Origin: Halobium salinum
GTDB taxonomy: Archaea; Halobacteriota; Halobacteria; Halobacteriales; Haloferacaceae
Length of the DNA stretch: 64,000 nucleotides
Reading direction: 5' to 3'
NCBI RefSeq assembly: GCF_026586625.1
Contig: NZ_JAODIW010000008.1
Span: forward strand, 677,811-741,810
This document shows, piece by piece, positions 5,925 to 59,866 of this stretch. The position numbers and the translations under genes were made by a program. The first letter of the stretch is position 1; the number at the start of each line of letters is the position of its first letter. A model generated the notes under the pieces. That model had not been told where the DNA came from and did not search any database. It worked only from the letters and a program-made list of their open reading frames with translations.

Positions 5925-5955
5925 AGTGGGTGCCGGGCGTCGTATCGATTGCAGT

Positions 5956-6041
5956 GGAAGGGTCGCTCAGTGGCAGAGCACCGTTCGGTCGGCGGACGGG
6001 AGCCGTTCAGGCTTCGTGTGGTTCGAATCCCACCCCTTCCG
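5956..6041 (+). tRNA. tRNA-like element, class II shape, anticodon not assignable
   Basis: The 5' end GGAAGGG (5956-5962) pairs perfectly with CCCTTCC (6034-6040), followed by a G discriminator. A normal D-arm (GCTC AGTGGCA GAGC) and a T-loop TTCGAAT (6022-6028) are present. Positions 6000-6014 form a 5-bp hairpin that looks like a long variable arm. Two features are wrong for a normal tRNA. The anticodon arm (5981-5999) pairs CCGTT with GACGG around a 9-nt loop that has no U33-anticodon pattern, and the T-stem closes only if T6019 is bulged. It may be a degenerate tRNA, a tRNA-like RNA, or a tRNA with an unusual intron. A functional tRNA of normal type is not supported. Confidence 0.5.
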
Positions 6042-6351
6042 TTTTCCGAGGAACGTAGCGAGCGACCGACGGGAGCGAGCCAGTGAGTCGTGAAAACGAC
6101 TCGGGAAGGGTTCGAATCAGGGAGTGAAGCGAGCGTCAGTGAGCGGAACGACCGTGGTTCGAATCCCACCCCTTCCGTGCCGGCGCGAACGACAGTAAGC
6201 GCCGGCCGAGTACGGTGGCGATTCGAACCCTGTCAGTCGCAGCGTCCGAGTGAAACGAGGGCGACCGTCTGACTCCGGTTCGAATCCCACCCCTTCCGTT
6301 TTCCGAGGAACGTAGCGAGCGACCGACGGGAGCGAGCCGGTGAGTCGTGAA
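6020..6351 (+). repeat. Array of tRNA 3'-end copies
   Basis: The T-loop/acceptor end of the upstream tRNA-like element (ggttcgaatcccac...ccttccg, 22 bp) occurs three times: 6020-6041, 6156-6177 and 6277-6298. The first and third copies extend into a 75-bp direct repeat (6020-6094 and 6277-6351) with one mismatch by eye (6082 against 6339). Between them lie further T-arm fragments, one direct (about 6107-6116) and one inverted (about 6222-6231), within GAGCGAGCG-rich spacer. No gene is visible in 6042-6424. Serial integration scars or recombination between tRNA ends are possible origins. Confidence 0.8.
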
Positions 6352-12516: not shown

Positions 12517-12917
12517 TGAGAGCGGCTGAGAGGAGTAAGCCCCCTTCTGTTCGGCCCGACATTCGGCTGAGCGTCCGCGCTCGGCCTTGCGGCGCGTTCG
12601 GACTACCTTCGAACGCGGACTTGCACCGGTGAGGGTTCGCCGTTCCATCCGTTCTCGACCCGGTCGCGTCCGAGGACGCGCCCTCGGCGGGTTAGCTCCC
12701 TCCCCTTACGGGTCGGTTCGCGCGCCCGGGGTCGCCGGGCGCCGGGGCGGCCGAAGCCGCCGCCGCGCCTCATCGGTCGGGTCGAGGGGTCTCGTTTCTG
12801 TTCCAGAGCCAGCCGTCTCCGACTCCGGGCTTACACCCGGTCACCTGTCCGGTCGGTGGGGGGACTTTCCTCATGGGTCTTCACCCACGGGGGTCGGGCT
12901 CTCTCTGCCGTCTCGTC
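12517..12917 (-). ncRNA. rnpB: RNase P RNA
   Basis: On the minus strand the region contains the universally conserved parts of RNase P RNA. Near the 5' end is GAGGAAAGTCCCCCC (CR-I). ACAGAA lies in the middle, GTGCAAGTCC is further on, and near the 3' end is AACAGAAGGGGGCTTAC (CR-V). The ends (GAGACGGC... and ...CAGCCGCTCTC) can pair as helix P1, with small bulges. It is the catalytic subunit that cuts tRNA 5' leaders. The exact ends are estimated to within about 10 nt. ACTTTTC near 12934-12941 is a TATA candidate. Open frames across this region are incidental. Confidence 0.93.
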
Positions 12918-43370: not shown

Positions 43371-45074
43371 CTACCCTAGCCGCGCGTGTCGGTCGAACCC
43401 GCGAATCAGCGCCGACTCCTCGACGGTGAGGACGGTCGGTCGGCCGTGCGGGCAGTCGAACGGCCGCTCGCAGGCCGCGAGGCGGTCGCGGAGCGCCGTC
43501 GCCTCGGCCTCGCCGAGGGCGTCGCCGGCCTTCAGGGACGGGTGGCAGGCGAGGTCGGCGAGCAATTCCTCACGGCCGTCGTCCGGGTCGCCGCCGGCGT
43601 GAAGCGCCGCGACCGTCTCACGGAGCGCGTCGAGGTCGGCCACCCGGCCCAACGGAGCCGGCACCGACCGGACCCTGAAGGTCCCTCCTCCGAAGGGCGC
43701 CACGTCGAAGCCGAGTCCGGCGAGGGTCTCGCGCTCGGCCTCGACGGTGGCCGCCTCGCCCGGCGGGAAGGAGACGGTCTCGGGCGGGTCGAGGGGTCGG
43801 GTCGGGACCCCCTCTTCGGCGACCGCCGCCCGCAGGCGCTCGTAGTTCACCCGCTCGTGGGCGGCGTGCTGGTCGACGACGAGCAGGTCGTCGTCGGCCT
43901 CGAACAGGAGGTAGGTCCCCCGGAACTGCCCGACGTACGTCGCGCCGGCGAGCCGGGAGTCCGACTCCCCCTCGGCGGGAGCGAGCGAGGAGTCGAGGTC
44001 CATCGCCACGTCGCCGGCGCGCCGGAGGTCGGCCGTGGAGAGCGCGTCTCGCACCGCCCGCTCGACGACCCCCGCCACCGCGTCGGCGTCGGCGTGGGCC
44101 ACCTCGCGCTTCGCCGGGTGGACGTTCACGTCCACCGTCTCGGGCGGCACGTCGAGACGGGCGACCGCGACCGGGTGGCGACCGTCCGGGAGGAGCGAGC
44201 CGTACCCGGAGTCGACGGCCCGCCGGACCGCGTCGTCGCGGACGAGTCGCCCGCCGACGGCGACGTGGATGTGCTCGCCCGAGGCGCGCGTCACGGAGGG
44301 GTAACAGAGCAGCCCCTCGACGCGGACCTCCCGCCGGCGGCCGTCGAGGTCGACTTCGGCTTCGGCCTCGAACGTCGTCGACCGCGAGGCGACCGTCCGG
44401 TCGTAGACGGCGAGTGCGGCGTCCACGTCCCCGCCGGAGCCGGGCGAGGCGAACGTCTCGCGGTCGTCGTGGGTGAGTCGAAAGCGCACGTCCGGCCGGA
44501 CGAGCGCGTAGCCGGCGACGAGGTCGCTGACGCGGGCGAACTCCCGTTTCGGTCCGCCGAGGGACTTGCGGCGCGCGGGCCGGTCGGCGAACAGGTTCCG
44601 GACCTCGACGGTGGTGCCGGGGGCGCGGCCGGCGTCGGAGACGTCGGGGCCGTCGTCGCCGACGGCGAGGCGGGTCGCGGGTCCGTCTCCGTCGCCGCTC
44701 CCCGCCCCGTCGGCCGGCGCCGTCGTCAGCGTCAACTCGCCCGCCTCGGCGATGCTCGGCAGGGCCTCCCCGCGGAAGCCGAGCGTCCGAACCCCTCGGA
44801 GGTCGTCGTCGGCCCGGAGCTTACTCGTCGTGTGACGCTCGACGGCCAGACGTGCGTCTTCACGGGCCATTCCGTGCCCGTCGTCGGCGACACGAATCAG
44901 GTCGGTTCCGTCGCCGACGACGTCGACCTCGATTGATTCGGCGCCGGCGTCGAGGGCGTTCTCGACGAGTTCCTTGACGACCGCCGCGGGCCGGGTGACC
45001 ACCTCGCCGGCGGCGATGCGCTCGACGGTCCGGTCGGGGAGGCGTTCGACTCCCCGACCACTCCCGTCGGTCAT
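43371..45074 (-). CDS. mutL: DNA mismatch repair protein MutL
   Basis: This 567-residue GHKL ATPase acts between mismatch recognition and strand cutting. The N-terminal ATP site has [12 protein letters not shown] (Glu36, Asn39), DDGHGM and [12 protein letters not shown]. The C-terminal domain keeps the endonuclease motif [12 protein letters not shown] near residue 395 and a late CPHGRPT, so it is predicted to nick DNA itself, as expected where MutH is absent. It overlaps mutS by 4 nt. Confidence 0.95.
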
Positions 45075-58745: not shown

Positions 58746-58842
58746 ACCGACGGGAAGACCGGGTCGTCGGTAAGCGTTCCGGGACCCGGCACTCGGTGCG
58801 AAGGGAAACGGTTATTCGGCCACGTGGGGTGAAATCGGGTAC

Positions 58843-58916
58843 GGGCTCGTAGTCTAGTTGGTTATGACGCGGCCTTTACAAGGCCGAGATCGGTGGTTCG
58901 ACTCCGCCCGAGCCCA
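58843..58916 (+). tRNA. tRNA-Val (anticodon TAC)
   Basis: This is a complete 74-nt cloverleaf. Acceptor GGGCTCG pairs with CGAGCCC, followed by A. The anticodon stem CGGCC/GGCCG closes the 7-nt loop TTTACAA, giving anticodon TAC. The T-arm is CGGTGGTTCGACTCCGCC. GGTTATTCG near 58810 is a promoter candidate. Confidence 0.95.
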
Positions 58917-59172
58917 TGAAACTCCGCGAGCGACAGCGAGCGTAAGTTTCTGCCGTGAGGTGTGGAGTCGAACCCTACAAGTCGCGCGCAACGAGCGGAG
59001 CGAGTGAGCACGTCTTGCTCCGGTTCGACTCCGCCCGGGCCCATACGAGTGCCCGAGCGACAGCGAGGGCCGAGTACGTTCGTGAGGCGGCGTCGAACCA
59101 GGGAGGTCGCAGTCTCGCGAGCGTCAGCGAGCGAGGAAGCGTCCGAGTGAGGTTCGACTCCACCCGGGCCCA
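58895..59172 (+). repeat. Array of tRNA-Val 3'-end copies
   Basis: The last 22 bases of tRNA-Val (ggttcgactccgcccgagcc...) recur at 59022-59043 and 59151-59172 with one or two changes, spaced by 127 and 129 bases. Each repeat is followed by CATACG(A/G)GTGCCCGAG. Inverted fragments TGGAGTCGAACC (58962-58973) and CGTCGAACCAGGG (about 59091-59103) lie between them in GAGCGACAGCGAG-rich spacer. No gene is visible in 58917-59245. Confidence 0.85.
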
Positions 59173-59245
59173 TACGGGTGCCCGAGCCCACTACTTCAGT
59201 GCGAGCGACAGCGAATACGAATTCGTGACGACGCGTCGGGGCCGA

Positions 59246-59866
59246 TTACGCCGTCCGCCCACCCCGACGTGACTCCACCCGACCCGGCAGGTAGTGATAC
59301 CCGAGAACGGCGACGGCGACTCCGGCGACCGCTCCAACCGGGAGCCCGACCAGCAGCGACGGCCAGATGTAGGGGTCGAGCACGGCAGTCGTGCCGACGG
59401 CGACGGCCCCGAAGGTCACCAGTCCGGCGACGAGGCTCCCGGCGACGCGGAGCGTCCGGCCGGTTCGGTCGTCGTCCGTCCCGACACGGTGGTCGGCTTC
59501 GAGGGTTCCACCGAGCGCACCCCCGACAGCGGCGACGACGCCGCTCCCTGCGAATCCGACGACGGTGAGGACGCCACCGACGAGGAGGCCGGCGAGGGGG
59601 ACCTCCCCGAGGTTCTCGAACGGAACGGTACCGAGGTTCAGGAACGCGCCGACCGTCGTCAGTACGGCGGTGACGACCGCGAGGAGGACGCCGGTGAGGG
59701 CGCCGATGAGGGCGCCGCGTTTCGCGCCGGCGCGTTCGAGGTAGCCGGCGACGCCGCCTCCGAGCAGGGGCGCGACGAGAGCGACGACGGGAACGAACCA
59801 GGCCGCGAAACCGACGACGAGCCCCGCGAGGACGCTCCGAGCGGTGCGAGTTGACGTGTCGTTCAT
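59246..59866 (-). CDS. Membrane protein, Gly/Ala-rich (DUF5518-like)
   Basis: This 206-residue membrane protein has about five hydrophobic segments with many small residues (SVLAGLVVGFAAWFVPVVALVAPLLGGGVAGYLERAG at about 10-45). The Gly-rich first half matches the haloarchaeal DUF5518 type (name from memory). The ATG at 59866 (MNDTSTRTARS) is preferred over TTG/GTG codons about 120 bases upstream. The function is unknown. Confidence 0.72.
   Translation of the reverse strand: MNDTSTRTARSVLAGLVVGFAAWFVPVVALVAPLLGGGVAGYLERAGAKRGALIGALTGVLLAVVTAVLTTVGAFLNLGTVPFENLGEVPLAGLLVGGVLTVVGFAGSGVVAAVGGALGGTLEADHRVGTDDDRTGRTLRVAGSLVAGLVTFGAVAVGTTAVLDPYIWPSLLVGLPVGAVAGVAVAVLGYHYLPGRVESRRGGRTA

Follow-up and report, generated by a model that had tools for sequence, protein, structure and literature searches.

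What process places copies of a tRNA 3′ end behind the tRNA gene itself, in tandem and in the same layout at tRNA genes of unrelated sequence? The question arises from two loci in the window (the whole 64,000-nucleotide stretch of Halobium salinum DNA that was analysed), one behind tRNA-Val and one at 6.0 kb. An earlier note had reported the last 22 bases of tRNA-Val twice more downstream, had found GAGCGA(C)AGCGAG-type sequence and inverted T-arm fragments in both arrays, and had proposed one mechanism that copies tRNA ends at a fixed spacing. Both descriptions are accurate: the coordinates and number of the tRNA-Val copies are correct, and the motif and the inverted fragments are present at both loci (Table 1).

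Table 1. Features of the two tRNA 3′-end arrays, in positions of the window
Feature	Position	Strand	Remarks
tRNA-Val (TAC), intact	58843..58916	+	ARAGORN; Rfam RF00005, 66.8 bits
Copy 0, final 22 nt (nt 52-73) of tRNA-Val	58895-58916		within the gene
H1, unit 1 of tRNA-Val array	58918..58950	+	stem GAAACT...AGTTTC, apex GCGAGCGACAGCGAGC
Inverted T-arm, unit 1 of tRNA-Val array	58962..58974	-	GTGGAGTCGAACC
H2, unit 1 of tRNA-Val array	58962..59034	+	inverted T-arm, inner hairpin, copy-1 T-arm; 58-bp start-to-start class
Direct copy 1 of tRNA-Val 3′ end	59022..59043	+	1 mismatch
H1, unit 2 of tRNA-Val array	59051..59070	+	GCCC-GAGCGACAGCGA-GGGC; from sequence and motif scan
Inverted T-arm, unit 2 of tRNA-Val array	59089..59099	-	GGCGTCGAACC, 1 mismatch
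H2, unit 2 of tRNA-Val array	59087..59163	+	closes on copy 2
Direct copy 2 of tRNA-Val 3′ end	59151..59172	+	2 mismatches
Degenerate H1-like remnant beyond last tRNA-Val copy	59173..59216	+	GCGAGCGACAGCGAATA
tRNA of second array	5955..6042	+	ARAGORN call Arg(TCG); 3′ end 6020-6041
H2, unit 1 of second array	6107..6168	+	T-arm variant, then AGGGAGTGAAGCGAGCGTCAGTGAGCGGAACGACCGT, then T-arm copy
Direct copy 1, second array	6156..6177	+	0 mismatches
H2, unit 2 of second array	6219..6288	+	58-bp class, CTGTCAGTCGCAGCG...GCGACCGTCTGACTCC
Direct copy 2, second array	6277..6298	+	0 mismatches

The tRNA-Val copies are separated by 127 and 129 bp from start to start, and those of the second array by 136 and 121 bp. 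In the first unit behind tRNA-Val the inverted T-arm is an exact match to that tRNA's own GACT T-loop variant, and the position of H1 is matched in tRNA-Val arrays of other genera. The first H2 of the second array is an R1 match (G000:C13:683918-683976, E 2.7e-14), and beyond the second copy there the first H1 is partly repeated. Rfam release 15 matched nothing but the tRNA itself over positions 58800-59300, and thus no described structured RNA. The tRNA-like gene of the second array is odd and low-scoring (38.8 bits), as is another in this genome (L044, G000:C11:1424899-1424997; 40 bits), which seems to be intron-bearing; the two share the acceptor stem GGAAGGG/CCCTTCC and each has a three-copy array behind it. 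Elsewhere in the window there is an archaeal RNase P RNA (positions 12524-12909, minus strand; RF00373, 150 bits), and an ARAGORN call of tRNA-Ser at 44606-44696, which lies inside apparently coding sequence without support from the Rfam tRNA model, is probably a false positive.

Whether such arrays are a general property of tRNA genes can be read from a census of the genome, in which the Rfam tRNA model gives 47 matches, two of them fragments, leaving 45 genes whose loci were read in tRNA orientation. A copy of the gene's own last 22 nucleotides is present within 500 nt downstream, with up to four mismatches, at 21 of the 45 genes (16 with no more than two mismatches). None of the 45 has its own 22-mer copied upstream, none has it inverted, and when 22-mers are swapped between dissimilar tRNAs there are matches in 6 of 1454 comparisons; the copies are therefore not the product of chance. 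Arrays contain between one and three downstream copies, and arrays also occur throughout the haloarchaea. Because one polarity and one two-hairpin anatomy are common to the 21 loci and recur haloarchaea-wide, a single mechanism is likely, and in this the preference of the earlier note for one process over two independent integration histories holds. The check that the note had called for, a scan of other tRNA loci that would refute the idea if arrays were absent or randomly spaced, did find arrays.

There are several consistent features of the units. First, at unrelated tRNAs they follow one plan: the tRNA end, the hairpin H1, an inverted copy of the tRNA's own T-arm, a purine-rich segment (for example AGGGAGTGAAGCGAGCGTCAGCGAGCGGAACGACCGT) and a direct copy of nt 52-73. 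Second, the inverted T-arm and the T-arm of the next direct copy are the 5′ and 3′ arms, respectively, of the second hairpin, H2, whose stem of 11–12 bp is extended by short stems with tandem G.A pairs between them. Third, the inverted T-arm fits its own tRNA better than other tRNAs (a mean of 2.3 mismatches in 13, versus 4.3), and of 33 inverted T-arms measured, 18 start 47 or 48 bp ahead of the copy and four more start 57 or 58 bp ahead. Fourth, the loop lengths of H2 fall into clusters at 28/36 and at 39/47; each step of 8 corresponds to one stem module of 4+4 nt. Finally, the first units, 69–201 bp long, contain hairpins alone and no genes.

The spacing of an array is the length of H1 plus that of H2. 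Fixed-period copying is accordingly rejected, and the interval of about 130 bp that had been taken as constant is not: first-copy spacing at the 21 loci ranges from 69 to 201 (median 136), as set by the lengths of exchangeable hairpin modules. The number of units also varies, from 0 to 3 even behind identical tRNA-Val genes. Helical phasing was considered as a cause of the 47 and 58 bp spacings and dropped, the length classes differing by 8 nt, the 4+4 stem step.

Compared with shuffled sequence, H2 folds more stably as RNA (z -3.4 to -6.8); as DNA it does so in four of five cases. Across 32 H2 sequences there are double changes at 10 of 20 pairs, a level reached by none of 500 shuffles and far above that of slid versions, in an alignment that was partly picked by the T-arm inverted-repeat pattern and so favours the outer stem; inner pairs that were not selected for also change, U18-A41 to C-G in 12 sequences and G26-C33 to A-U in 10. 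This covariation already weakens an account in which polymerase slippage or template switching at the near-palindromic T-arm gives rise to direct and inverted copies and hairpins accumulate neutrally. Tandem duplication does occur: in one tRNA-Val array (L116, genome G045) there are about four tandem repeats of H2 alone, at a period of 46 bp, and another locus (L286) contains an exact tandem duplicate of a whole unit. A neutral process does not, however, yield covarying stems, nor does it explain the symmetrical 4+4-nt steps between loop classes or the independent assortment of H1 and H2 described below, and we regard passive duplication as very improbable.

The hairpins are also strongly polar, with 258 apex motifs on the tRNA-sense strand versus 8 on the antisense strand. 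Such restriction fits an RNA, and it also fits a directional process acting on single-stranded DNA. The first possibility is the main rival to the exchange of cassettes that we propose below: H1 and H2 would be folded portions of the pre-tRNA trailer, shaped by selection on processing, on termination, on stability or on a small RNA made from it, and the copies would have come from duplication and been kept by function; the inverted T-arm would mask the T-arm copy downstream and so keep it from competing with the genuine end of the tRNA. The placement of the hairpins on the transcribed strand, the folding of H2 as RNA and its covariation all speak for this, as does the overlap of E. coli tyrV repeats of like anatomy with the annotated small RNA RttR. 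The apex loops speak against it, being GNA triloops in 134 of 171 cases and, among 34 tetraloops, GNYA in 30 and GNRA in none (counts that are not independent, as the sequences are related), whereas selection for a stable RNA should have favoured GNRA. DNA mini-hairpins with d(GNA) loops are known for their very high stability (Hirao 1994 and Yoshizawa 1997, as referenced in PMC11101458), and the prevalence of GNA and GNYA apices without GNRA leans towards DNA hairpins, short of proof. Furthermore, about half of the tRNA genes have no units at all, identical tRNA-Val genes differ in unit number, and some H1 types have no T-run and so are not simple T-stretch terminators, which have been mapped in Haloferax (PMC7237163). 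We consider a function in the RNA trailer rather unlikely.

Comparison between species shows how the modules are combined. Behind tRNA-Val in 30 genomes of the family, mostly of different genera, there are 0–3 units. In one genus, represented by 52 genomes, the tRNA-Val of 28 species is identical, and the arrays of these species, again of 0–3 units, draw on a small repertoire of H1 and H2 modules in many combinations; one H1 type is paired with seven H2 types and others with three to five. The junctions between species fall at the direct T-arm and at the inverted T-arm. An H1 module used as a probe was found in tRNA-Val arrays only, among the genomes searched, as would follow if cassettes were exchanged only where the tRNA ends match; on the result of that one probe, the idea that modules move from one tRNA gene to another within a genome was rejected. 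Two tRNA-Ala genes of this genome that have the same 3′ end are followed by a nearly identical unit. In 16 of 27 arrays of at least two copies the last copy is a poorer match than the first; in 11 the two are equal, and in none is the last copy better. This mismatch gradient agrees with insertion of units next to the tRNA as the rule; the anchoring of units between related species divides evenly on tRNA-proximal insertion, 17 versus 17.

As the best-supported account, held at somewhat less than even confidence, we tentatively propose that non-coding cassettes are exchanged by recombination at the tRNA T-arm/3′ end, with a putative recombinase. The cassettes, which measure about 70–200 bp and contain H1 and H2 followed by a repeat of nt 52-73 of their upstream tRNA, would be inserted or exchanged where their matching tRNA end meets the T-arm/3′ end, the presumed crossover site. 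The agent could be a putative tyrosine recombinase from among those that target tRNA ends; alternatively, the process could be homologous exchange between orthologous arrays from other cells. The tRNA would stay functional because each exchange restores an identical 3′ end, and the hairpins of the tRNA-sense strand may be the form read by the recombination machinery. Cassettes would be lost by recombination between the 22-bp copies; short-repeat-mediated deletion has been described in haloarchaea (PMC3119063). The proposal is supported by the copies of own 3′ ends at 21 of 45 genes, the common anatomy, the closer fit of inverted T-arms to their own tRNA, the covariation of H2, the reassortment of H1 and H2, the restriction of the probed H1 to tRNA-Val, and the decay of last copies. 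It also draws support from the real integrations at tRNA ends in this genome and from the prophage T-arm repeat beside an integrase gene, both described below. It is weakened in that an RNA function would leave covariation of the same kind, and in that the arrays showed no inverted modules, such as might be generated by a recombinase working on inverted sites. It is weakened further by the islands and the searches for mobile carriers that follow.

A third alternative is that the arrays are scars of mobile elements, each copy being the attR of an element that had entered at the tRNA and of which, after later deletion, nothing but the attP arms was left. The 3′ ends of tRNA genes are a classic integrase target, and they have been used by real integrations in this genome. 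Some H2 matches are situated away from tRNA genes: one lies 2.2 kb past tRNA-Arg(TCT), and the N-terminal fragment of an integrase (weak Pfam matches) intervenes; tRNA-Arg(TCG) is separated from its 3′-end array by about 32 kb (G000:C2:291753-323744; L058, L059, L084), a stretch that is a probable genomic island; and two lie behind partial tRNA-Met copies, 13–17 kb from the tRNA-Met gene. That displaced arrays and partial tRNA copies sit behind islands or element remnants is in keeping with scars, as are T-arm inverted repeats beside an integrase gene in Bifidobacterium-type prophages. On one such contig a T-arm inverted repeat and a tRNA 3′ end lie 58 bp before an integrase gene (PF00589), so a T-arm inverted repeat can belong to an att region. 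Long inverted repeats with a tRNA 3′-end-like terminus also occur at five IMG/VR loci (L130, L131, L133, L135 and L138) and two of Bifidobacterium (L180, L182), and these are likely prophage att regions; that of L135 adjoins a tyrosine recombinase gene.

The islands of this genome nonetheless separate a tRNA from a pre-existing array rather than creating one, and an island's own far copy has no H2 ahead of it. From this the arrays look older than the islands and not to be their attP arms, and H2 as the attP arm of these islands was rejected. A viral source of H2 was likewise rejected, the 17 matches in IMG/VR including none of the haloarchaeal type; the plasmid collection yielded no carrier and the phage collection none of relevance. 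These results count against scars, as does a two-hairpin anatomy that is uniform across some 20 unrelated tRNAs, and we find this origin quite improbable. The far copies without H2, and the failure to find a halovirus or plasmid with H2, also count against cassette exchange.

The tRNA-Val array is one member of a class of hairpin cassette arrays that occur at tRNA 3′ ends across the order. The pattern of an inverted T-arm, 28–52 nt and a T-arm is present in 116 of 148 genomes of the family (a reversed control gives no match) and in most other families of the order, and has no occurrence in the sampled genomes of the rest of the phylum. Of 40 genomes of the order, 30 contain matches to a covariance model of H2. 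In a scan of species representatives, 89 of 118 loci among the matches listed are downstream of a same-strand tRNA with a matching 22-mer, most others being bacterial matches or at contig ends, and the 22-mer copy is without mismatch in 53 of the 93 counted among those listed. Two of these listed loci are non-haloarchaeal, behind a tRNA-Ala of a Lachnospiraceae MAG (L145) and a tRNA-Ser of a Woesearchaeota MAG (L205), and have units of the same plan, 3′-end copies with inverted T-arm hairpins.

The closest known case, alike in layout, is that of the distal repeats of E. coli tyrT/tyrV (rttR, tpr). In K-12 tyrV the 3′ 19-mer of tRNA-Tyr recurs exactly at +178, +356 and +534, and in each unit an inverted GGGGAAGGAT complementary to that copy is accompanied by a hairpin motif of GA type, CTCGAGCGCCAGCGAGAG, over the annotated small RNA rttR; K-12 was the comparator, the tyrT repeats being absent from strain SK1144. 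In both, tandem units behind a tRNA close with a 3′-end copy that is exact or nearly so, but the E. coli repeats are confined to one locus, with nearly identical 178-bp units that include the CCA end, and are not genome- or order-wide. Archaeal integrative elements that target tRNA genes through tyrosine integrases (SSV, pT26-2 and SNJ2 types; reviewed in PMC8371274) also use the tRNA 3′ end as core, leave the tRNA intact and place a direct repeat of its 3′ end at their far boundary, as the 22-mer copies are placed here; the haloarchaeal units differ in being 70–200 bp long, without integrase or cargo genes, and in their fixed two-hairpin plan. PATE, MITE and SMR elements of haloarchaea (PMC3119063) are similarly short, palindromic, non-coding and repeated, but they are dispersed and many are transposon-related, whereas the units described here are tied to tRNA 3′ ends and carry matching tRNA sequence. 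Nor is this a CRISPR array, in which unique unstructured spacers lie between identical repeats; the spacers here are shared structured modules.

Integron attC arrays resemble these in plan only, with an inverse core, a hairpin and a core in tandem cassettes of fixed strand. The haloarchaeal core is GTTCRA with, in the usual case, the inverse TTYGAAC, as opposed to GTTRRRY and RYYYAAC in integrons, and the haloarchaeal units, unlike integron cassettes, hold no ORFs. In a bolder form of our proposal, which we think improbable, tRNA genes would be integron-like platforms without genes, from which cognate hairpin cassettes are excised, and into which they are inserted, at the T-arm by a putative recombinase reading the folded sense strand; the inverted T-arm, hairpin and T-arm would be the equivalent of attC and the tRNA gene the primary site, and E. 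coli tyrT, L145 and L205 would represent the same or a convergent system.

No prior description of the haloarchaeal arrays was found in the open-licence literature, in which a structured repeat class tied to haloarchaeal tRNA 3′ ends thus appears to be undescribed. What had been a single puzzling case at E. coli tyrT becomes a testable class, and the tRNA end looks like a place where recombination has long occurred. Each genome offers many natural replicate loci for the study of how recombination and tRNA genes coexist, and the annotation of haloarchaeal tRNA flanks, att sites and tRNA trailers would be affected.
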